From a virus: DNA of 20,290 nt. This document shows positions 7,657 through 20,290 of the stretch, piece after piece (position 1 is the first letter of the stretch; every line of letters starts with the position of its first letter). The stretch is taken from positions 1 through 20,290 of the IMG/VR virus record IMGVR_UViG_3300042540_000099, one strand, 5' to 3'. Both the position numbers and the translations under genes were made by a program. The notes below the pieces were generated by a model. It saw only the letters and a list, made by a program, of their open reading frames with translations, ran no database searches and had not been told where the DNA came from.

Positions 7657-7852
7657 GGGGGCGTCCTCGTTTGCGGGGCGTGGCATCAGCGGTTTCGGCC
7701 TGGTGTTCCACGGCCGCCGTCTCGATCAGCGTCTGCGTGTCCTCGACGGCGATGCCTCGCCGTATCCAATCGTTCGCCATTCCATCCGGCACGTCTGGCA
7801 GAACCTGCCCACGGCGGTAGACGCGATAACTCTGCACCATTCGTATTTTCAT
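7613..7852 (-). CDS. Small head-region protein with AT-hook-like basic tail
   Basis: A 79-residue protein whose ATG at 7852 overlaps the TGA of the glycosyltransferase-like gene (ATGA). The N-terminal part (SYRVYRRGQVLPDVPDGMAN, about 8-27, then IRRGIA) resembles small head-region proteins often found between capsid and connector genes. The C-terminus holds PRKRGRPRA (about 59-67), which matches the AT-hook core (RGRP) that binds the DNA minor groove, and ends in a Pro/Ser/Gly-rich tail. Whether it binds DNA is inference. Upstream frame extension is open but lies inside the previous gene. Confidence 0.72.
   Translation of the reverse strand: MKIRMVQSYRVYRRGQVLPDVPDGMANDWIRRGIAVEDTQTLIETAAVEHQAETADATPRKRGRPRAVPQPDSPDSPGG
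7665..7668 (-). promoter_or_regulatory. Shine-Dalgarno GAGG deciding the connector start
   Basis: The minus strand reads GAGG followed by 8 bases and then GTG at 7656. The competing ATG at 7686 has only a distant AGG. This site lies inside the coding sequence of the AT-hook-like gene. Confidence 0.45.
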
Positions 7853-8586
7853 GACTGGGGCACACTCCATGCAGTTCCGGGTCGCTTCATGGTGTTCGTG
7901 AAGTCGGTGGCCCACTGAAACACCGGCTGTGCCAGATCTCGGCCAGGCCACGTCACCATGTATTCGCCGTGGCCCAGAACGACCCGCGGCGAGACAAACA
8001 CACGGTTTCCGCTTTCTCGCCAGTTCTTCCACCACCAGATATCCGGGTCCAGCCTGCCCTCATTCCATGACTTGTCTGGACCCGGCTGGCTCCAGAACCA
8101 CGGCTTGTTGTTTCGCTTCAACGCCGCCGTGCTTATGACCGTCAGCCCGAAGTGCGCCGAGTCCACTTCCTGCACGGGTTCGGCAAACCACGACATCGGC
8201 AGCGTGGACTTCTCGCCGTCCATCACTTTGCCCAGCGTTCCCTTGAGCGTGAGCATGGGCCGCCCGTCTTCCCGCTTGGTCTGGAGCCCGGTGATGGCAT
8301 CGCACTGGAAAGCCATCGCCAGCGAAAGCAGGTGCTCCACGTCCGCCTGGGTGAAAAACGTGTCGTAGTCGATGGTGAGCAGGTACTCGCACTTGTCGAT
8401 GAATTGCTCCATGATCCGGGTGTGGACCTGATCCCAGAAACAGCCGGTGCCCATTGTCGGCCGAATGCCGAGCGGCATGAGCGCCTGAGCCCATGCAAAA
8501 TGGTTACTCGTAAAACTCAACCGAGGCATCGAGAGGATCGCCTCAACTCGGATGTCTACCGACGTGTCGCCAACCTTGACCAGCAT
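7849..8586 (-). CDS. Glycosyltransferase-like protein (GT-A fold) in the head operon
   Basis: A 245-residue protein with features of GT-A glycosyltransferases: a hydrophobic strand ending in a DxD-type motif (YLLTIDYDTFF, Asp73 and Asp75), a following helix (ADVEHLLSLAMAF), AITGLQ, a later HFGLTVISTAALKR segment, and DPDIWWWKNWRESGNRVFV with a trailing LGHGEY. In this family the DxD aspartates bind a metal and the nucleotide sugar. I chose the ATG at 8586 because GAGG lies 6 bases upstream and a hairpin lies further upstream. In-frame GTG 8643 and ATG 8598 are alternatives. It lies between capsid and connector genes, so a virion protein substrate is plausible but unproven. No signal peptide or membrane segment is seen. 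Confidence 0.78.
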   Translation of the reverse strand: MLVKVGDTSVDIRVEAILSMPRLSFTSNHFAWAQALMPLGIRPTMGTGCFWDQVHTRIMEQFIDKCEYLLTIDYDTFFTQADVEHLLSLAMAFQCDAITGLQTKREDGRPMLTLKGTLGKVMDGEKSTLPMSWFAEPVQEVDSAHFGLTVISTAALKRNNKPWFWSQPGPDKSWNEGRLDPDIWWWKNWRESGNRVFVSPRVVLGHGEYMVTWPGRDLAQPVFQWATDFTNTMKRPGTAWSVPQS

Positions 8587-10500: not shown

Positions 10501-10674
10501 CTACCTACCCGCCCCCTTGCAGAACCGCACTTCGGAAACTGTTGTTTTGACAAACACCACGCCACGCGCGCCGCACCGTGGGCATCGCACGTAACGCTGC
10601 CGCTCATCGCCGCAGGCGCGGCTGGAGCGTGTCCGCAGTTTTTCGCCGCACTTGCAGCGAGGACCGTCAGACAT
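10501..10674 (-). CDS. Small Com-like zinc-ribbon protein, 57 aa
   Basis: I translated this short frame directly. The ATG at 10674 overlaps the protease stop by 8 bases, has GAGG 7 bases upstream (10682-10685), and ends in TAG at 10501. The protein is basic, with cysteines at 7, 9, 21, 31, 34 and 52. The pattern RCKCGEKL...RCPRCGARG resembles the Mu Com zinc-ribbon family (C..C...L, then RCPRC), although the first pair is spaced CxC rather than CxxC. Com of phage Mu binds mRNA to activate translation of mom. No mom-like gene is visible here, so an RNA- or DNA-binding role is inference. Its place between protease and capsid genes is unusual. Confidence 0.78.
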   Translation of the reverse strand: MSDGPRCKCGEKLRTRSSRACGDERQRYVRCPRCGARGVVFVKTTVSEVRFCKGAGR

Positions 10675-11323
10675 TGCGAAGCCTCAGAATGGCAGCCCAG
10701 GCGGCGGCGACGCCCCGCAGGGTCGAACGCACAGAATCCGCCTGGGCCGCCGGTTCTGAGGATTGCAAATGCAGCCACGCCTCGTACGACCGCATGGCCA
10801 CGGCAATGCTGGTGCTGCTATACGCCGGCGTCACCACTGGACCCATCTCGAACAGCCCAGACGCCTCGACCACCTCGCGGATTGCCTTGCCGGTTTCGTC
10901 CGTAGTGAACCGTTCACCGCCACGCTGGGCAACCGTAAAGGCGAACGAACTGCCACGCAGGTTGCGAGACCGTACCAGGGCCAGCACGTCTCGTCCTGCC
11001 TGCGTGTCTGGCGGCTCCACGATGTACGACACGCCACGCTCGTCCGACGTGATCTCAAGCGTGCCTGCCGCCTCGCGGCCGAGTAGCCAGTTGGAATCGT
11101 GGTTGAAGTAGCTCACGATCTCCTGCCGGCCACGCTGCCGGCTCAGGATCTTGTCAAACGCCCCCGGCAGGATTCGCTCGCGGAACCCACCGAGATCCAC
11201 GCTAAGCCGGTTGTACGGGATCGCCACTCCGCGGATCGCCTCGCGACCGTTGGACCGTGTCTCGACAACGAGCTCCACTTCCGGGGCATCCTCAACAAGC
11301 AGCGAGCGGCGTTCAATTTCCAT
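10667..11323 (-). CDS. Prohead protease, HK97 type (peptidase U35/S78)
   Basis: A 218-residue protease of the HK97 prohead family. It shows the family N-terminal block GVAIPYN (about 32-38), then FRERILPGAFD (about 47-57), a catalytic His in the SYFNHDSNWLLG segment (His75), and a catalytic Ser in LRGSSFAF (Ser125 or 126). It removes the capsid scaffold domain during head maturation. I chose ATG 11323, which overlaps the portal's stop by 11 bases and has GGAG about 10 bases upstream. Its C-terminal extension (about 180-218) is Ala/Arg-rich. Confidence 0.92.
   Translation of the reverse strand: MEIERRSLLVEDAPEVELVVETRSNGREAIRGVAIPYNRLSVDLGGFRERILPGAFDKILSRQRGRQEIVSYFNHDSNWLLGREAAGTLEITSDERGVSYIVEPPDTQAGRDVLALVRSRNLRGSSFAFTVAQRGGERFTTDETGKAIREVVEASGLFEMGPVVTPAYSSTSIAVAMRSYEAWLHLQSSEPAAQADSVRSTLRGVAAAWAAILRLRNV
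10682..10685 (-). promoter_or_regulatory. Shine-Dalgarno GAGG for the zinc-ribbon gene
   Basis: GAGG, seven bases, then ATG at 10674 on the minus strand, inside the 3' end of the protease gene. It is the main evidence that the short frame is translated. Confidence 0.55.
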
Positions 11324-12575
11324 CTGCGGCGTTCTCCGTGTCGTCTTCGGCGTCATCGGCTGGGGTGTCTTCCGCCTCTGCAACGGGCGGCTCCTGGCCG
11401 ATCTTGTCCAGCGTGGTCATGTTCAACTGCACGAAATGCTGGTCACCTGCCGCCCCGATCGGGTTGAGGTTTTCCGCCTCGCGGATTTCGTTGATCGTCA
11501 TCCATCCGTTCTGCAGGGCCGACACATAGAACGCCGCCCGGCTGGCGTGGTCACCACGCAGCAGGCCGTTGACGTTGTGCTCGGCGAAGTACGTCTCGTC
11601 GTCTTCGATCAGGTCGCGGCTGATTGCCGCCTCCCACCGCTTCAAATGCGGCAGCAGGCAATGCTGCACGAACTCCGTGCCTTGCACTTCGATGTTCGAG
11701 TAGGTGCTGCGGCTGAGATCCTGCACCATGTGCGGCGGCACCCGGAACACGCGGCAGATTTCCGTGACGGCAAACTGCCGGCTCTCCAACATCTGGGCCG
11801 CCTCGTTGCTCTGCGAGAGCTCGTGGGCCTTCACGCCGTTCGGCAGGACGGCCGTGCGGAACGCACGATCCGGGCCGCGGTGCATCCGCTCCCACTGCTC
11901 GCGGAGCCGCTCGGCTGCCTCCACCGGAATCGGGTTGTCCGACTCCAGAATCACGCCCGGCCGGGCACCATTGCCGAAGTAGGTGGCCGCGTGGGCCTCC
12001 AACGCCTGAGCGAGACCGAGCACGTTGCGGAACAGCCGGTAGGTCGGCATCGGCGTCACGCCGTCCTCGGTGTGATACCGAAGGGCGAAGATCTGCCCCT
12101 GCCGGTAGATCGTCTGCCGGCCGTTCGGCTCGCGGTACAGATACCGCAGGCTGCCGTCCTCAAGCCGCTCGACTTCCATCCGGCTCGGATGCAGTGGCCA
12201 AAGTTCCGACACCGGGCCGCGGGCGCCGGCACGGATCTCGGCGTAGCTGGCCCCGTAGTTCAGGTACAGCGCCGTCATCAAGTCGCGGAACTCTTGCGCC
12301 GTCTGCCAAGGGTTCGGCTGCTGGTGTAGCAGACGGTACAGCGGGTGATCCCACGCCTTTTCCTTGCCGCCGCTGGCGATCCGGCGGTACAGGTGCAGCG
12401 GCAGCGCCGACACCCCGTCAGAGATCACACGAATGCAGGCCGTGTAGGCCGCACACGCCAAAGCATTCTCTGGCGTGACCCGCACGCCAGAGGCTGTGCG
12501 GCCGCCGCCAACCTCGGCCCAGTCGATGCCACGCAGGTCGATCATCCTGTAGTCGTTGGTGGCCGTTTCGCTCAT
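11313..12575 (-). CDS. Portal protein, HK97 family
   Basis: A 420-residue portal of the HK97 family, forming the ring through which DNA is packaged and the tail attaches. It has the typical N-terminal PENALACAAYTACIRVISDG (about 34-53) and ALPLHLYRR, then HPLYRLLHQQPNPWQTAQEF, GNGARPGVIL and ICRVFRVPPHMVQD. Near the C-terminus are GWMTINEIREAENL and an acidic tail. The start ATG at 12575 overlaps the large terminase TGA (ATGA). An upstream in-frame ATG at 12629 lies in the terminase gene and is not preferred. Confidence 0.94.
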   Translation of the reverse strand: MSETATNDYRMIDLRGIDWAEVGGGRTASGVRVTPENALACAAYTACIRVISDGVSALPLHLYRRIASGGKEKAWDHPLYRLLHQQPNPWQTAQEFRDLMTALYLNYGASYAEIRAGARGPVSELWPLHPSRMEVERLEDGSLRYLYREPNGRQTIYRQGQIFALRYHTEDGVTPMPTYRLFRNVLGLAQALEAHAATYFGNGARPGVILESDNPIPVEAAERLREQWERMHRGPDRAFRTAVLPNGVKAHELSQSNEAAQMLESRQFAVTEICRVFRVPPHMVQDLSRSTYSNIEVQGTEFVQHCLLPHLKRWEAAISRDLIEDDETYFAEHNVNGLLRGDHASRAAFYVSALQNGWMTINEIREAENLNPIGAAGDQHFVQLNMTTLDKIGQEPPVAEAEDTPADDAEDDTENAADGN

Positions 12576-14137
12576 AGCGTCATCATGTCCCAGGATTGCT
12601 CTGGCGTGGCTGCGGTCGCTTTCTGCCACAGCCCGATAGCCATGACGAGCGACACGATGCCATCTATGCGTTCTGTGCTCTTGGCCTTGCTCGGCTTAAT
12701 GTTTCCGGCTGCGGAATCCTGCTGGATGGCCACGTTGGAAGCCTGCCACGACAGCACTGGGTGCCCACCATGCAGCACCTTTCCGCTCACAACAAGGTTC
12801 TCCAGCTGCTTGCTAGGTGCCGACAAAGAGCCGTAGCCCTGCCGAAAGTCTGACATGGGGAGTCCGTCACCTTGCAGTTGCTGGCCGAGCTGTGCGGAGT
12901 TCCACGGGTCTAGGCCGATGCCGCACACCTTGTATTTGCCGGCAATGGCGTTGATGTCCGAACGCACTTGGTCGAAGTCGGTCACGTTGCCATTTGTCAT
13001 GTGCAGGTGCCCCTGCCTGTGCCACGTCAGGTATGGCACTTTGTCGCGTCGCTCTCGCTGGTGAGCGTTGTCGCTCGGTATCCAGAAGTGTGGCTCAATC
13101 CAGAACGTGCCATCATCTAGCGGGAACAGCAGCACCAGGGCTGTGGTGTCGAACGTCGTGGCCAAGTCCAGCCCGGCCCAGCACTCGCGGCCCGCGAGAT
13201 CCACCGGGCACGGCTTACCGCCTTGAGCCCAGTGATCCATGCGCAGCCACCTGGTGCTCTGTTCTGTCCACTGGTTCAGATACAGCTGCCGGAAAGTGTT
13301 CTCGTACGTCGGCATCTCAACCGCTCGAGCACATTCACTCCGCAGGAAGTCAAGACGCACCGAGACGCCGAGATTCGGATTGGCAGCAGCCCACGTTCTC
13401 TCGTCCTTCCAATCGGCCGCAGGATCAGCACAGTAGATTGCCGGCAGGAACGTCTCGTCTTTCACGGTGCCGGCGGCCACCGCTTCGGCGTATTTCCAGA
13501 TTTCCCAGCAGACGCTTTTGCGGTCAAAGCCTGCCGTAGTGAGCGCCACCGTGAGCGGCTGACGCCGAGCACCTTGGCTGCTAAGCATCACTTCCCACAT
13601 TTCGCGGTTGCTTACATGTAGCTCATCGAAAATCACGCCGTGAGCCGAGAGCCCGTGCTGGATTCCAGCCTCGGCGGAAAGTGCCTTGTACGTTCCGTGC
13701 GTCGCCTCTCGCACGATGGCGTTGCGGTAGACCTTCAGATGCTGACGCAGCACCGGCGACTGCTCGACGTAGACTCGGGCCATGTCAAAGACGAGCCGGG
13801 CCTGATCGCGTGAGGCTGCACAGGAATACACTTCACAGCCGGGCTCGTTCTCCATCAGCAGCTTAAGGGCGATGCCAGCACACAGGCTGCTCTTTCCGTT
13901 CTTGCGCGGAATCGCCAGTAGGCTTGTGCGGACTTTTCGAACGTCGCCCTCTGTGGCAAAGAGCTTTCGCACGTAGTCCTGCTGCCACGGCTCAAGCGTG
14001 AACGGCTTGCCGCCGAGCTCGCCCTTGGCGTGCGTCAGGTGCTTGTGAAAGAAACGCACCGCCAGGCACGACGAGCACTTTTCGCACGGGTGCTCAAGCG
14101 AACATGCGGGCGTCTTCTTCGTCTGCTTGCGGGCCAT
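12572..14137 (-). CDS. Terminase large subunit
   Basis: A 521-residue packaging ATPase-nuclease. Walker A is PRKNGKSS (77-84) and Walker B VIFDEL (168-173), with the HGLSAHG segment before it. The C-terminal RNase H-like nuclease domain shows acidic residues in GLDLATTFD (Asp324), GIGLDPW (Asp410) and ERIDGIVSLVMA (Asp492). An N-terminal cluster of cysteines (12, 18, 21, 24) could bind zinc and is not usual in this family. The ATG at 14137 is preferred over a GTG at 14155. It overlaps the small subunit by 44 bases. Its product cuts and translocates DNA with the small subunit and HNH protein. Confidence 0.95.
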   Translation of the reverse strand: MARKQTKKTPACSLEHPCEKCSSCLAVRFFHKHLTHAKGELGGKPFTLEPWQQDYVRKLFATEGDVRKVRTSLLAIPRKNGKSSLCAGIALKLLMENEPGCEVYSCAASRDQARLVFDMARVYVEQSPVLRQHLKVYRNAIVREATHGTYKALSAEAGIQHGLSAHGVIFDELHVSNREMWEVMLSSQGARRQPLTVALTTAGFDRKSVCWEIWKYAEAVAAGTVKDETFLPAIYCADPAADWKDERTWAAANPNLGVSVRLDFLRSECARAVEMPTYENTFRQLYLNQWTEQSTRWLRMDHWAQGGKPCPVDLAGRECWAGLDLATTFDTTALVLLFPLDDGTFWIEPHFWIPSDNAHQRERRDKVPYLTWHRQGHLHMTNGNVTDFDQVRSDINAIAGKYKVCGIGLDPWNSAQLGQQLQGDGLPMSDFRQGYGSLSAPSKQLENLVVSGKVLHGGHPVLSWQASNVAIQQDSAAGNIKPSKAKSTERIDGIVSLVMAIGLWQKATAATPEQSWDMMTL

Positions 14138-14552
14138 TCTCAACCGCCGAGACACGGGCCAGCGCCGAGGCCGTTAGGCCGAACTCGGCCGCGAACTTCA
14201 GCATCTGGTTTCTCGCGTCGCGCTTGCGGGTCCACGCCGGGTGATTACTTACCCTACCCTTGTCGTCCATGAACGTGGCCCCGTTGGCCTTGAGCTCACG
14301 GTCTGCCTCAATCATGTCGGCGAGCGAGTCGCAGTAGGCGGCCAGCGTCTGTTGGTGCCTGGGGCTCATGACCTTCGACGCCTCGAGCATGGGCACGATC
14401 CGCACCCACTCCTCTCGGGCTAGATCCGAGAGCCAGTGAGGAGCGAGTGGCACGCCTGGCGGCGCGTCGATGCCCGACTTGTGCGGCCCCCTAACGCGAG
14501 CCCCGCGAATCTTAAGTAGCGGTTTAGGCGTCGGCTTCCGGCCCTTGCCCAT
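14094..14552 (-). CDS. Terminase small subunit, P27-like
   Basis: A 152-residue protein between HNH and large terminase genes. It shows the P27-like pattern: a basic N-terminus (MGKGRKPTPKPLLKIRGARV), then PLAPHWLSDLAREEWVRIVP, LEASKVMSPRHQQTLAAYC, a linker (GRVSNHPAWTRKRDARNQML) and the C-terminal FAAEFGLTASALARV. It recognises the packaging site and loads the large subunit. The ATG at 14552 has GGGAGG (14561-14566) 8 bases upstream, so I prefer it to a start at 14576. Confidence 0.92.
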   Translation of the reverse strand: MGKGRKPTPKPLLKIRGARVRGPHKSGIDAPPGVPLAPHWLSDLAREEWVRIVPMLEASKVMSPRHQQTLAAYCDSLADMIEADRELKANGATFMDDKGRVSNHPAWTRKRDARNQMLKFAAEFGLTASALARVSAVENGPQADEEDARMFA

Positions 14553-15488: not shown

Positions 15489-15830
15489 TCACCGCACACG
15501 GACCGGCCAACCAGGCACCACGTTGAAATCCGACGGCGCGGGTTGCGGGGACGGCGGCGCCTGCAATCCTGTCATGTACTCCGCCTCGGTGATCTCCTCA
15601 ACGGCGCCGCTGCCGAGGATCTGCGGCAGGATCGTAGCGGCTGGCTCCCACGTTGCGAACTCGTCATGCACCGCCAGTACGACCCGCCCTGATCCGTCCC
15701 TGGGCGATACGGCCACCGGGTCAAAGCATGTCAGCGTCCTGCCGTCTGCGGACGGATGCCCCCACGCAGCGTCCAATTGGAGCCGGATCGTTTCGTACAG
15801 CGACAGGTCTGCCGTGCGAAAAAACCTCAT
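15489..15830 (-). CDS. Unrecognised protein following the LamG gene, 113 aa
   Basis: A 113-residue protein whose ATG at 15830 overlaps the TGA of the LamG gene (ATGA), so the two are translationally coupled. Segments such as SLYETIRLQLDAAWGHPSAD and GRVVLAVHDEFATWEPA suggest a mixed alpha/beta soluble domain, and the C-terminus is Pro-rich (QAPPSPQPAPSDFNVVPGWP). I recognise no family. It may act with the lectin-like protein, for example as an assembly partner or accessory virion protein, but only the coupling supports that. Confidence 0.75.
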   Translation of the reverse strand: MRFFRTADLSLYETIRLQLDAAWGHPSADGRTLTCFDPVAVSPRDGSGRVVLAVHDEFATWEPAATILPQILGSGAVEEITEAEYMTGLQAPPSPQPAPSDFNVVPGWPVRVR

Positions 15831-16573
15831 GACAGCGACACTCCCCACTTTGTGGCGAGATACTTTTCGACCGATGACAGCTCTGAAGCCGTCAAGGTTC
15901 TGCTGTACAACAGGATTTCGGCTACCACGCCAGAAAAATATCTTAGAGTTGAGCCGTCTCTGCCAACTTGAAAGACTGCATCAGTCTCGTTTGAGCCGGA
16001 CGCAAAAGTCCCAGCCTGAGTCCCCTGGGTGCCGTTGACCCGCACCGTAAATGTGGTTGCGTCGATTGTGGCCAGGACGATCTGAGAACTATCGGCAACA
16101 ACACCACCGACGGTGCTGTTAAACAGCGCACTTCGGTACGATGCCGTCCATCGATTGGGAGTTGTTCCTGTATTGACATTGACGCCATTAGCAGATGAAC
16201 CGCGAGCAAACAGCAGTGCCTCAAAATTGGACTTTGTGTCAACCATTTCCGCATCAGGTATCACGGCGATTGCGTACGTTACATACCCAGACAGTGAATT
16301 TGCGTTGAAGGTAGTGTTGATCTGGTCATTAATGCCGTCAAAATACAACGCACCTTTCCCGTTCATTCCAGACGCTCTGTATTCAGGTCGATTGTTGGCG
16401 GTCGTCTGCGTGGCCGTAACCCCGCCTACCTTGCTATTCCATTGCGACACGGCGCCGCTGACTGTCGTGATCGTGGAGGCGTCAGCCCCGTCAAGCCATA
16501 GTTGCAGGCTGCCGATCGACGACGGGTTGAAGCCCGTGGCCCGTGGCCGCAACAGCCGTCCGCTCATGCCCAT
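15827..16573 (-). CDS. LamG / concanavalin A-like lectin domain protein
   Basis: A 248-residue protein with the LamG_3-like pattern. It starts with LQLWLDGADASTITTVSG (about 23-40) and SQWNSKVGG, continues with GALYFDGINDQINTTF (about 74-89), and ends with FSGVVAEILLYSRTLTASEL and VEKYLATKWG near the C-terminus. Such domains bind glycans or proteins and often occur in virion or adsorption proteins. The ATG at 16573 has GAGGA 9 bases upstream and follows the previous stop after 4 bases. Its GC content is visibly lower than its neighbours (28 of 60 bases at 16141-16200), which suggests recent acquisition. It is small for a tail fibre, so its virion location is not certain. Confidence 0.85.
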   Translation of the reverse strand: MGMSGRLLRPRATGFNPSSIGSLQLWLDGADASTITTVSGAVSQWNSKVGGVTATQTTANNRPEYRASGMNGKGALYFDGINDQINTTFNANSLSGYVTYAIAVIPDAEMVDTKSNFEALLFARGSSANGVNVNTGTTPNRWTASYRSALFNSTVGGVVADSSQIVLATIDATTFTVRVNGTQGTQAGTFASGSNETDAVFQVGRDGSTLRYFSGVVAEILLYSRTLTASELSSVEKYLATKWGVSLS

Positions 16574-16577
16574 GGCG

Positions 16578-16835
16578 TCAGTTCCTCGTTGCGTCAGGCT
16601 TGCCGTCGTTCACCAGCCGCGGCTGCAGTGCGTAGAGCAGTTTCGTCTGCTCGCTGATGGTCTGGCTAATCTCTTGCTGCGTCTCGCTTAGTTGCCGCAC
16701 GAACGACCGATGCTCCTCCACCAGAGGCAGTAGCACGTCGTTCCGCAGCACCCAGCCGGCAGCCAAGGCGACCAAAGTGGGAAATCCCCACCGTTCGATG
16801 ATGCTGAAGAGCGTTTCCTTCGTCGCGTCCGTCAT
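16578..16835 (-). CDS. Small membrane protein with coiled coil, holin-like candidate
   Basis: An 85-residue protein that starts at the ATG 16835, overlapping the previous TGA (ATGA), with GGAG 5 bases upstream. One hydrophobic segment (about residues 17-40, FPTLVALAAGWVLRNDVLLP) is followed by a charged, Gln/Glu-rich helix (RQLSETQQEISQTISEQTKL). This topology resembles small BhlA/UviB-like holins, although no conserved signature is certain. A longer frame begins at 16889 but lies inside the upstream gene. Neighbouring genes (a second membrane protein, a lipoprotein and a cysteine peptidase) make a lysis role plausible. Confidence 0.75.
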   Translation of the reverse strand: MTDATKETLFSIIERWGFPTLVALAAGWVLRNDVLLPLVEEHRSFVRQLSETQQEISQTISEQTKLLYALQPRLVNDGKPDATRN

Positions 16836-17164
16836 GGTGTCTCCTGCATTGCCTGCATCGCTGCCCGGTTCTCGCGGCTGTCGAGCCACCAGCGAATGAG
16901 GATCTTCACGATCTCGCTGATCAACGCCGACAGGACGAGCGTGAGGATGATCCCCATGCCGTACTGCTGCCGCCGCCTCTTGAGCGACTTGGCAAGGAAC
17001 GAGCCGACGACCTCAGCCTCACCAACGTCGCACTGCCGCAGGACCGGAGCGGGCCAGCGACGCACGGCGTCGTCAACGACGCGGGCGACGGTATCACGCC
17101 CCGCAATACGCAGCCGCAGGGGCAACCGTCCGTAGACGTAGGCAGTCAGGTCGTCGCGGTTCAC
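16832..17164 (-). CDS. Single-pass membrane protein, 110 aa
   Basis: A 110-residue protein starting with GTG at 17164, which overlaps the lipoprotein's TGA (GTGA). GGGAGG (17170-17175) lies 5 bases upstream. The soluble N-terminal part is basic (VYGRLPLRLRIAGRDTVARV) and precedes a Cys-containing acidic loop. A clear membrane segment near the C-terminus (about residues 70-95, IILTLVLSALISEIVKILI) follows a KRRRQQ stretch and is trailed by a short charged tail. It may be a holin, an antiholin or a spanin-like component. No family is recognised. Confidence 0.75.
   Translation of the reverse strand: MNRDDLTAYVYGRLPLRLRIAGRDTVARVVDDAVRRWPAPVLRQCDVGEAEVVGSFLAKSLKRRRQQYGMGIILTLVLSALISEIVKILIRWWLDSRENRAAMQAMQETP
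16841..16844 (-). promoter_or_regulatory. Shine-Dalgarno GGAG for the 85-aa membrane protein
   Basis: GGAG, five bases, then ATG at 16835 on the minus strand. Together with the ATGA overlap it decides the start over the longer frame at 16889. Confidence 0.5.
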
Positions 17165-17445
17165 TGGCACCTCCCGTCAGAGCATGCCTTTCCGGTGCCC
17201 TTGCACTCCGGGCAGGTGATGACGATGCGGCCGTCCGTGCTCATGCGTCCGGTGCCGAGGCACTTGGGGCACTTGCCGGCTGGCACCACGGGCTTCGGGG
17301 GGGCTGGCGTCGGGGCCGGCTCATGCCGCATCTGCACGACCATTCGTGCTGTCTCGGCGGCCAGGTCAGCGGAGACACCGTGGTCCGATGGCAGCGTAGC
17401 AACGCACCCGGCGAACACGACGAGCAAGGCGATAAGAAACCGCAT
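17161..17445 (-). CDS. Lipoprotein with DnaJ-like CxxCxGTG zinc ribbon
   Basis: A 94-residue protein with an N-terminal hydrophobic signal and a lipobox-like FAGC ending at Cys14, so it is probably exported and lipid-anchored. A Pro/Ala-rich linker (about 41-58) leads to two CxxCxGTG motifs (CPKCLGTG at 59-66 and CPECKGTG at 78-85), the zinc-binding repeat of DnaJ, and then two more cysteines (88, 93). The ATG at 17445 overlaps the peptidase TGA (TGATG), with GAGGA 8 bases upstream. A GTG at 17448 is also possible. Its location between a peptidase and small membrane proteins suggests an envelope or lysis role. A lipoprotein of this type in a phage is unusual. Confidence 0.85.
   Translation of the reverse strand: MRFLIALLVVFAGCVATLPSDHGVSADLAAETARMVVQMRHEPAPTPAPPKPVVPAGKCPKCLGTGRMSTDGRIVITCPECKGTGKACSDGRCQ
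17170..17175 (-). promoter_or_regulatory. Shine-Dalgarno GGGAGG for the 110-aa membrane protein
   Basis: GGGAGG, five bases, then GTG at 17164. It excludes an alternative GTG at 17170, which would lie in the site itself. Confidence 0.5.
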
Positions 17446-18368
17446 CACAGGATTCCTCGCAGCCAGTTGTCGGGCAGGGCGGTCGGTTGGAACCCGCTGT
17501 AGCCCGCGTAGACGTAGGAGTCACGGCCAGAGCACATGCGGTCGATCACTTCCGCGTCGGCCCAAAACGAGCAGTTACGGACGGCCTCGGGCATGTCGTG
17601 CGGGTAATGCTTGCCGACCGTGTTGGAGTCGCCCCAACTGTTGAAGATCAACACGCCGGGCCGCTTGCCGAAGCGGACGCCACCCCCGAAAAGGCAATGC
17701 CACCAAACCCCGCCAGCCTTGCAAAAGCCGTCGTCGTCACGGCTCATTGAAAAGCCTTGGCCGCTGCAGAAAACGATTCCGTAGCCATTGGACAAGGCTT
17801 TTGCACATTCCACGAACGACGTGACGAGCGTCGTCTCCGAGCACCGCCGCTCCTTGGCGAACGGCTCGAGCACGTCGGGCACACCGTTCCGGCCCCAGTC
17901 GCGATCACGGGCCTGCTTGCCTTCCTCGCGGATGATCGTCCCGGCGTAGTCCACGCCGTAGTGCAGGCAGCCGTAGTCGCGGACGCTCTTGGCAGCGTGA
18001 AACCCGGTGGACCCGTCGCCACCAGTGTTCGACCGCTGGCCCCTGGCCTCCACCCGAGAGAACCCGTACAGGCTCGACTCGATCACGCGGCCCTTCCACG
18101 TCTCCGGCTCTTTCCGCCAGTGGATGTCGCACGCGGCGAGCACGTCCACGGCGAGCGACGCGCCCCAGCCGACACAACTGCCAACGTTGCCCTGCGAGCC
18201 GCGACGCCATGACGGCGAGCACGCCAAGAGCGCCGGGTAGAGCATCACGTCTTCGCCGGCCGCCCGCAGGTCAGGCCCGGCTTGTGCCAGCGTCGGGTGC
18301 CGCAGCGTGGCTACGAACGACTCGGCACCTTCAGGATCGGGGACGTACCCCATGCCACGGTCGGCCAT
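17445..18368 (-). CDS. Papain-like cysteine peptidase (C1 family)
   Basis: A 307-residue protein with the papain active-site layout. Gln59 and Cys65 lie in SQGNVGSCVGWGASLA, with the same six-residue spacing as papain. His224 is in the GGVWWHCLFGGGVRFG segment, and Asn243 in FNSWGDS, the family's NSWG signature. Extra cysteines could form disulfides or other structure. No signal peptide is visible, as for holin-dependent phage lysins. A following lipoprotein and two small membrane proteins form a compact cluster. Its substrate is unknown; envelope-protein cleavage during lysis or DNA entry is the attractive inference, and virion protein processing is an alternative. The start ATG at 18368 follows the previous stop after 3 bases. 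Confidence 0.88.
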   Translation of the reverse strand: MADRGMGYVPDPEGAESFVATLRHPTLAQAGPDLRAAGEDVMLYPALLACSPSWRRGSQGNVGSCVGWGASLAVDVLAACDIHWRKEPETWKGRVIESSLYGFSRVEARGQRSNTGGDGSTGFHAAKSVRDYGCLHYGVDYAGTIIREEGKQARDRDWGRNGVPDVLEPFAKERRCSETTLVTSFVECAKALSNGYGIVFCSGQGFSMSRDDDGFCKAGGVWWHCLFGGGVRFGKRPGVLIFNSWGDSNTVGKHYPHDMPEAVRNCSFWADAEVIDRMCSGRDSYVYAGYSGFQPTALPDNWLRGIL

Positions 18369-18371
18369 GTC

Positions 18372-18965
18372 TCAGCCCCCCGCCCATGCCAGAGCCTTCG
18401 CCAGTTCGACGTAACGGCCGCGAGTGTCGGCAGTGACCGGCACGTCGTCAGATCCCAGCACGGCCTTGTACGAGGCTTCCACGGCCCCCCTGAGCGATTC
18501 GTGGCTGCCGGGAGCGTGACCGCCGATCCGCCGCCATGCGATATCGAGAGCAACGGCGGTGAAAGCCCGCAGCTCGCGGGTGTCGCGGAACGCCGGCTGG
18601 AGAGCCGTTGACTCGGCAGCCACAACGACGCCGGCCTTGCTCCACACCTCACGCCAGAGTGCCCGGTCGGACGCCGGGAGCGACCGTAGAGCGTCGGCGA
18701 CCGGCTGGACCGTCTGACGCATGGACTCGCTGGGCAGGTCCACCGTGACCGGCCGAGTCGGCAGGCTCGGGAGCGACGGCAGATTTCCCCACGCGGCCCA
18801 CAGGATCAGCCCTGCGGCGACTGCCCTGCCGGCCGTGCCGGCGTAGGGCTTGCCACGCTTCCAGGCTTCAATGAGCCACGGGGCGGCTTTGTGGAGATGT
18901 GGGCCAGCGACGAGAGCAACCGCCGCCACAACGGCCCCGGCGCGAAAGAAATCATCGGTGCTCAC
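18372..18965 (-). CDS. Two-pass membrane protein, 197 aa
   Basis: A 197-residue protein starting with GTG at 18965, which overlaps the previous TGA (GTGA) and has GGAGG 7 bases upstream. It has two hydrophobic helices (about 9-22, AGAVVAAVALVAG, and about 44-60, AGRAVAAGLILWAAWG), then a Pro-rich linker (LPSLPSLPTRP) and a soluble helical domain (WREVWSKAGVVVAAES). The topology suggests a membrane-anchored domain. It may be a holin or a membrane-bound part of the neighbouring peptidase module. No family is recognised. Confidence 0.8.
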   Translation of the reverse strand: MSTDDFFRAGAVVAAVALVAGPHLHKAAPWLIEAWKRGKPYAGTAGRAVAAGLILWAAWGNLPSLPSLPTRPVTVDLPSESMRQTVQPVADALRSLPASDRALWREVWSKAGVVVAAESTALQPAFRDTRELRAFTAVALDIAWRRIGGHAPGSHESLRGAVEASYKAVLGSDDVPVTADTRGRYVELAKALAWAGG

Positions 18966-19261
18966 CGTAGTGCCTCCGCTTGGACCACGATCCACCGGAC
19001 CAAGGCTTCGCCTTGCGGCGTCTTGAGCACGTCGGCCAGCCGCCTGGCCAGTTCGTCATCGACCGTCGCCTTGGTCTGGCTGGCGAGCCACTCGACCGCG
19101 TCAGCCACGACGATCGACCGCTTATACGGGTCGGCCTCGGCCATGAACGCCTGTCCGTACTTCAGCAACGGCGACCACTTCTGGAGCAGCATCAGCGACT
19201 GCCAGAGGTTCAGGTTGCCGTACTGCTGCAACTCGCTCGGCGTCGCGCCGTAGTTTGGCAT
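18962..19261 (-). CDS. Helical unknown protein, 99 aa
   Basis: A 99-residue, mostly helical protein with no membrane segment or cysteine. Examples are LWQSLMLLQKWSPLLKYGQA (about 19-38) and VDDELARRLADVLKTPQGEA (about 67-86). It starts with ATG at 19261, with AGGAGG about 8 bases upstream, and its TGA overlaps the next GTG. I recognise no family. It is translationally coupled to the two-pass membrane protein and may work with it. Confidence 0.75.
   Translation of the reverse strand: MPNYGATPSELQQYGNLNLWQSLMLLQKWSPLLKYGQAFMAEADPYKRSIVVADAVEWLASQTKATVDDELARRLADVLKTPQGEALVRWIVVQAEALR
18973..18977 (-). promoter_or_regulatory. Shine-Dalgarno GGAGG for the two-pass membrane protein
   Basis: GGAGG, seven bases, then GTG at 18965. 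It supports the GTG over a longer frame at 18995 and lies in the previous gene's 3' end. Confidence 0.55.
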
Positions 19262-19314: not shown

Positions 19315-19710
19315 TTAGTCATCCATCAGCCGCCGCACGGCGTCTTGAGCCTCGCGGCTCAGCGACAGCACACGAATGCCACCAAGCCCGTAGCTTTTGC
19401 GCACCCGGCGGGAGTGCCAATCGTCGTGCGTCCACGACGCTTGAATGGCCGTTACAGCAGCAGCGACGGCAGGGGCAAGCGACAGCCCTGCCCGAGACGC
19501 GGCAACCTCGGCGGCATCTGGAGGCGGCATTCGCTTGGGCTTGAATCGCAGCGAGCGGTCATTGCGGAGCGGAAGGCTCCACACGTCGCGCAGCCGGATC
19601 ACCTGATCTTTGCTGACTGTGTACCGGACGCACAGCTCCGAAATCGGAACGTGTGTCAGCCAGTCGGCCCGAAACGCCTGCACACTAATCGTCGCCGTGT
19701 TGCCTCGCAT
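19315..19710 (-). CDS. Small HTH-like DNA-binding protein, 131 aa
   Basis: A 131-residue protein that begins inside the end of the upstream glycosyltransferase-like gene. I chose ATG 19710; a GTG at 19683 just after that gene's TAG is an alternative, and neither has a strong ribosome-binding site. Residues about 10-45 (FRADWLTHVPISELCVRYTV and QVIRLRDVW) look like a helix-turn-helix with sensing of a sequence-specific site, followed by a basic linker (RFKPKRMPPP) and a second helical segment. It loosely resembles GcrA-like or terminase-small-like DNA-binding proteins. A regulatory role is inferred only from this pattern. Confidence 0.65.
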   Translation of the reverse strand: MRGNTATISVQAFRADWLTHVPISELCVRYTVSKDQVIRLRDVWSLPLRNDRSLRFKPKRMPPPDAAEVAASRAGLSLAPAVAAAVTAIQASWTHDDWHSRRVRKSYGLGGIRVLSLSREAQDAVRRLMDD

Positions 19711-20290
19711 GCTCCAGCCAATGCATGAGGGTCCGCTGACCAGGGTTGTGGAAGATCCGCCAACCAGCCTGCCGCATCGACCGGTGAAGCCCGACGTGCT
19801 CGATGTCGCCGTTGATGGATCGATACTCGTGCTCAAAGAACGGCTTTGCTCGGTACAAGGTGGCCGCGCCGAAACTTGAATACACCTCAACCGGGTGAGC
19901 ACCAGGCGGCGGCAACCAGAAATGAAACCACGGCTCAAAGCGTGGCTCCCAGCCGTAAGCCCGGAACGCCCATTGGTCATAGTGCGCCCACGCCGGCTTT
20001 TCGTTTACCAGCATCGTCGGATGCTGGAATAGCGACGTACTGGCCATGCACGCGGCGTCAGGAATCCTGCCGAGCCATCCAAGTCCGTTGATCAGGCCGT
20101 GCACGCTCCATCCGCCAATCGGGTCCAGATCGACCGCGAGAACGTAATCAGCGTCAGGGTGCAAGTCGGCAGCGATCTTGCGGTAATGGTTCCGATATTC
20201 GGCATACGCCTCTACACGGGCCGACTCAAACCCGCTGTAGTGCGGTCGGCCGAGATCCTGAATCACGGCCGTCACCTGCCCAGGGTGAGC
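19685..20290 (-). CDS. Glycosyltransferase-like protein (partial, runs off right edge)
   Basis: The frame is open from 20290 to TAG at 19685-19687 (201 visible residues) with no clear start, so the N-terminus is missing. A GTG at 20275 exists but has little support. The protein shows a GT-A-like DxD motif (VLAVDLDPIGGW, Asp54 and Asp56 in the visible numbering), an AACMAST segment and YDQWAFR. It then shows VYSSFGAATLYRAKPFF and IEHVGLHRSMRQAGWRIFHN. This order resembles the GT69/CAP59-like glycosyltransferases. The sugar and acceptor are not predictable. It differs from the second transferase-like gene at 7849-8586. Confidence 0.75.
   Translation of the reverse strand, partial: AHPGQVTAVIQDLGRPHYSGFESARVEAYAEYRNHYRKIAADLHPDADYVLAVDLDPIGGWSVHGLINGLGWLGRIPDAACMASTSLFQHPTMLVNEKPAWAHYDQWAFRAYGWEPRFEPWFHFWLPPPGAHPVEVYSSFGAATLYRAKPFFEHEYRSINGDIEHVGLHRSMRQAGWRIFHNPGQRTLMHWLEHARQHGDD

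Follow-up and report, generated by a model that had tools for sequence, protein, structure and literature searches.

What a papain-like cysteine peptidase does in a virus that encodes it among small membrane proteins is the question raised by a locus in IMG/VR virus record IMGVR_UViG_3300042540_000099, whose 20,290 bases are here called the window. The peptidase gene, hereafter C1, occupies positions 17445..18368 on the minus strand, which the genes of its module share, and encodes a protein of 307 aa. An earlier note, made from the sequence alone, had delimited the same open reading frame; the strand is a detail absent from it. The plus-strand frame of this stretch is interrupted by stops. 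All four residues expected of a papain-type active site are present as claimed, namely Gln59, Cys65, His224 and, within the NSWG stretch, Asn243, and the Gln59–Cys65 spacing of 6 residues indeed equals that of papain (Q19–C25). The wider family does not hold to this exact spacing, which is one residue shorter in many of its members.

Family libraries miss the protein. Searches of Pfam-A, PHROGs, and the PDB sequences with C1 as a single sequence gave no match, and shallow alignments of it retrieved nothing relevant from Pfam, PHROGs, or the PDB sequences. The Pfam Peptidase_C1 profile (PF00112) found no match in the window, and C1 does not fall within PF00112 as currently modelled. An hhalign comparison against papain alone gave E-values of 0.023 and 0.002, which carry little conviction by themselves. 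Structure prediction was more informative: an AlphaFold2 model based on a diverse alignment of 30 sequences (pLDDT 87.2, pTM 0.88) shows the two-domain papain fold, with Gln, Cys, His, and Asn in the expected order and Cys65 at the start of a long modelled helix (residues 65–83). An earlier model from 26 close relatives reached a pLDDT of 43 and was discarded, a deficiency remedied by the more diverse relatives. The top PDB match of the model in Foldseek was xylellain (3ois, E 1e-10), and the remaining matches listed were cathepsins, papain, and related C1 enzymes; VIA-align gave a Z-score of 21.4 against xylellain (239 residues, rmsd 2.9, 17% identity) and of 16.4 against papain (1ppn). Fold matches in BFVD included C1-annotated phage and giant-virus proteins, as well as phage proteins that carry the annotations Lysin A, endolysin, peptidoglycan-binding-like, and N-acetylmuramidase. 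Fold comparison, which the earlier note had proposed as a check, and residue conservation thus strongly support its papain-like reading, and on the basis of model and alignments the assignment of C1 as a predicted papain-fold (clan CA, xylellain-like) cysteine peptidase is well supported.

The active site is kept throughout the closer family. Among 149 non-identical, nearly full-length homologues with identities down to about 47–50%, Gln59, Cys65, and His224 are present in every protein and Asn243 in 148, and pairwise dN/dS values between C1 and its close relatives range from 0.10 to 0.29. Judged from these alignments, the conservation of the four residues is more than chance. The sole exception (L042:5561-6442) has lost the NSWG stretch, and with it the catalytic Asn, through an in-frame deletion of 12 residues. 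Another C1 copy (L206:8001-8899) contains stops in frame 1 and probably represents an assembly frameshift or a decaying gene.

Scans of IMG/VR with a progressively widened query yielded 57, then 182, and then 258 matching stretches, and the gene is found on about 260 contigs of this database, while relatives were absent from the INPHARED phages and the GTDB species genomes searched. Anchoring on the adjacent gene gC uncovered a second subfamily of C1, with proteins of about 332 aa, in which all four active-site residues are retained. Homology of the remote subfamily, which is recognizable only by profile, was supported by hhalign (99.4%, E 4e-21); its members bear the motif AQxRGDCV[AS]HSTR and take the place beside gC that C1 takes in the window (L332, L357, L379, L396, L407, and L409). 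No fusion of C1 to tail domains was found in the family.

C1 is the third gene of a tightly packed block of six, gB-gC-C1-lip-tm1-hol, all encoded on the minus strand. Overlaps of 4 nt link gB to gC and lip to tm1 (GTGA in both cases) and tm1 to hol (ATGA), C1 and lip share a TGATG stop-start overlap, and a gap of 3 nt separates gC from C1. The coupled operon is opened by gB (18962..19261, minus strand), a conserved protein of 99 aa without a membrane segment. It is followed by gC (18372..18965, minus strand), in which one or two N-terminal transmembrane segments and a Pro-rich linker precede a conserved C-terminal domain. Downstream of C1, lip (17161..17445, minus strand) encodes a small lipoprotein with the lipobox ..FAGC and a CxxC..CxxC ribbon, which is spanin-like by size and lipobox only; tm1 (16832..17164, minus strand) a protein of 110 aa with a single C-terminal transmembrane segment; and hol (16578..16835, minus strand) a holin candidate of 85 aa, whose one N-terminal transmembrane segment is followed by a charged helical tail. 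Of the six proteins in the window, gB and C1 have no hydrophobic segment above threshold; a single one occurs in each of lip, tm1, and hol. The earlier note was accordingly right that C1 lacks a signal peptide, there being no N-terminal hydrophobic segment, and that it lies beside small membrane proteins and a lipoprotein. Upstream of the operon, gA2 (19315..19710, minus strand) encodes a small protein that, by eye and on the family consensus, is helix-turn-helix-like, and a conserved, by eye glycosyltransferase-like protein at 19685-20290 is open at the window end. The lip ribbon is conserved as CxxCxGxG...CPxCxGTGK, which is odd for a phage lipoprotein, and the holin candidate exists in two forms, one of which has extra residues between the membrane segment and the helical tail (L238 vs. 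L239, L055, and L199).

Gene order around C1 is conserved across related loci. Among 118 C1 loci, gC was recorded as a neighbor in 116, gB in 96, tm1 in 85, hol in 82, and lip in 54, the tallies for tm1, hol, and lip being undercounts owing to the overlap rules. Viewed from the other side, C1 follows gC in 79 of 80 gC loci, the 80th contig stopping at gC, and in none of the 80 does a cassette with another enzyme replace C1. gC was moreover found only beside C1 and is an obligate partner of the peptidase. It has no family match; motifs of its C-terminal domain in the window and in L330-L409 are DRALW..VW.KA, DTRSLR, and IAWRR. In one locus (L239; L322:1347-2145), the N-terminal membrane part of gC is a separate gene.

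Downstream of the block lie fibre-like structural genes, among them one for a virion structural protein (15827-16573; phrog_10356, E 2e-24), and then the HNH, TerS (14094..14552, minus strand; phrog_83, E 2e-32), TerL, portal, S78-type protease, and capsid genes. TerL and portal have distant matches only, to many phages, and for a conserved protein at 7849-8586 no match was found in isolated phages or plasmids. Some C1-carrying phages also encode small secreted proteins with an H..G...EGIG motif (L314:9351-9644 and L321:18757-19068). In phage lambda, small membrane proteins, a signal-less enzyme, and a lipoprotein are likewise encoded as lysis genes just before the terminase genes. The C1 operon resembles such a cassette in this position and in these components, but differs in that the enzyme is a papain-fold peptidase, in the additional genes gB and gC, and in the missing match to any holin or spanin family.

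In 17 related virus contigs, at least one of them nearly complete, no match was obtained for seven families, namely Amidase_2, phage lysozyme, M15_4, M23, SLT, NlpC/P60, and CHAP. In contig G001 (38 kb), nearly complete as judged by its gene order relative to G003, scans of the 51 genes other than C1 against Pfam and PHROGs revealed replication, integrase, and structural genes; no lysin was among the matches listed (best 25 families, with 10 genes searched further). The missing peptidoglycan-hydrolase families, as judged by profile searches, support C1 as the lytic enzyme but do not prove it, and a lysin of a novel type could hide among the unannotated genes.

Because the usual wall-cutting enzyme was not found in the relatives, C1 probably opens the host cell. 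We consider it the somewhat better bet that C1 acts as lytic enzyme within a dedicated, unusual lysis operon and is released to the envelope by the neighboring membrane proteins. This reading builds on the fold, the invariant active site, the operon, and the place before HNH-TerS-TerL, and also on the lysin-named phage proteins among the BFVD fold matches. Made without a signal peptide, C1 would build up in the cytoplasm until, late in the infection cycle, hol, tm1, or gC lets it cross the inner membrane. It might then cut peptide bonds in the envelope, either in the stem or cross-link peptides of peptidoglycan or in a wall-attached protein. The product of gC, encoded just upstream, would probably serve as membrane anchor, chaperone, or timing partner of C1, and lip may perhaps act at the outer membrane in a spanin-like manner. 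Some observations count against a lytic function. Papain-family enzymes are known mainly for cleaving proteins between L-amino acids, not peptidoglycan, and C1 has no cell-wall-binding domain. The reading is further weakened because none of the neighbors of C1 matched a holin or spanin family in Pfam or PHROGs. Among the functions offered in the earlier note, an envelope lysin nevertheless fits best, agreeing with the operon, the pre-terminase position, and the lack of another recognizable peptidoglycan hydrolase in the relatives, although its lytic role and its substrate are inferred.

Two alternatives take C1 out of lysis while leaving it an active protease. The operon might be a membrane-associated module for host takeover or superinfection exclusion, in which gC, the lipoprotein, or a host membrane protein is the substrate of C1. 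The inseparability of gC and C1, the Cys-rich ribbon of lip, which is unlike typical spanins, and the integrase in relatives, which makes lysogen functions possible, are all compatible with this, but the place of the operon among the late genes, flanked by structural genes of its own strand, speaks against it, and it would leave these phages without a recognizable lytic enzyme; we regard it as possible, if rather unlikely. A virion role is conceivable because structural, tail-fibre-like genes follow the operon: C1 could be packaged or tail-bound and cut host surface or defence proteins as infection begins. Besides phrog_10356 downstream, the missing signal peptide and relative G014, where the C1 cassette adjoins fibre-like genes, are in line with such a protease, yet translational coupling to small membrane proteins and a lipoprotein, the constant pairing with the membrane protein gC, and the lack of tail-domain fusions in the family make it unlikely.

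The remaining alternatives carry far less weight with us. The earlier note had also considered an enzyme of virion maturation; phages do use proteases for maturation, and C1 lies in the late region. A separate S78-type prohead protease is however located between portal and capsid genes in the window (10667..11383, minus strand; phrog_80, E 4e-33) and in relatives, including G001 (Peptidase_S78, E 2e-37), and fills the head-maturation role. C1 differs from it in both fold and position, which makes a head or tail maturation protease very improbable. The least probable reading is that C1 has the papain fold but no activity and serves as a scaffold or for binding. The homologue lacking the NSWG stretch might speak for this; the near-invariance of the four residues, their retention in the remote subfamily, and the low dN/dS values all contradict it. 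The lytic enzyme remains our preferred reading.

Parts of this picture have precedents. Xylellain is a bacterial C1A cysteine peptidase by annotation, and xylellain-type C1A genes were reported in Siphoviridae and Myoviridae (PMC10380794). Xylellain is the best solved fold match of C1, its N-terminal segment included, but it is bacterial, has no link to a phage operon, and shares 17% identity with C1. The xylellain-type phage C1A proteins and the C1-annotated proteins of uncultured Caudovirales in BFVD are short and have the same fold as C1, but C1 shares 14–17% identity with the BFVD proteins in fold alignments and has no Pfam C1 match. The N5 domain of mycobacteriophage Lysin A is a papain-family cysteine peptidase domain in a phage lysin (PMC3314691); it is C39-like and is one of several domains in these lysins, next to an amidase or glycosidase and wall-binding domains, whereas C1 consists of one domain. 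CHAP and NlpC/P60 endolysins employ a fold of the papain-like superfamily for host lysis (PMC10318531), but are families distinct from C1, and neither was matched in the 17 relatives. The statement that papain-family peptidases are not standard in siphophages therefore holds, with the qualification that such precedents exist (PMC10380794; PMC3314691). Tailed phages with xylellain-type C1 genes, and phage lysins with domains of the papain family, had thus already been reported. No published description was found of the gB-gC-C1-lip-tm1-hol operon, nor of a profile-invisible family of stand-alone peptidases with a fixed six-gene operon and an obligate membrane partner.

About 260 uncultured virus contigs thus carry a widespread peptidase family, missed by family libraries, that combines an intact papain-type active site with a fixed operon. 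If C1 is the lytic enzyme, stand-alone endolysins would gain a new catalytic type, together with new accessory lysis proteins, and whether the host is opened by proteolysis, and of which target, would become a testable question. That a whole lineage of tailed phages relies for host lysis on a true protease and not on a peptidoglycan hydrolase, in a new lysis system with gC as obligate membrane partner, is a doubtful proposition; were it true, the envelope strength of these hosts would depend on protein.
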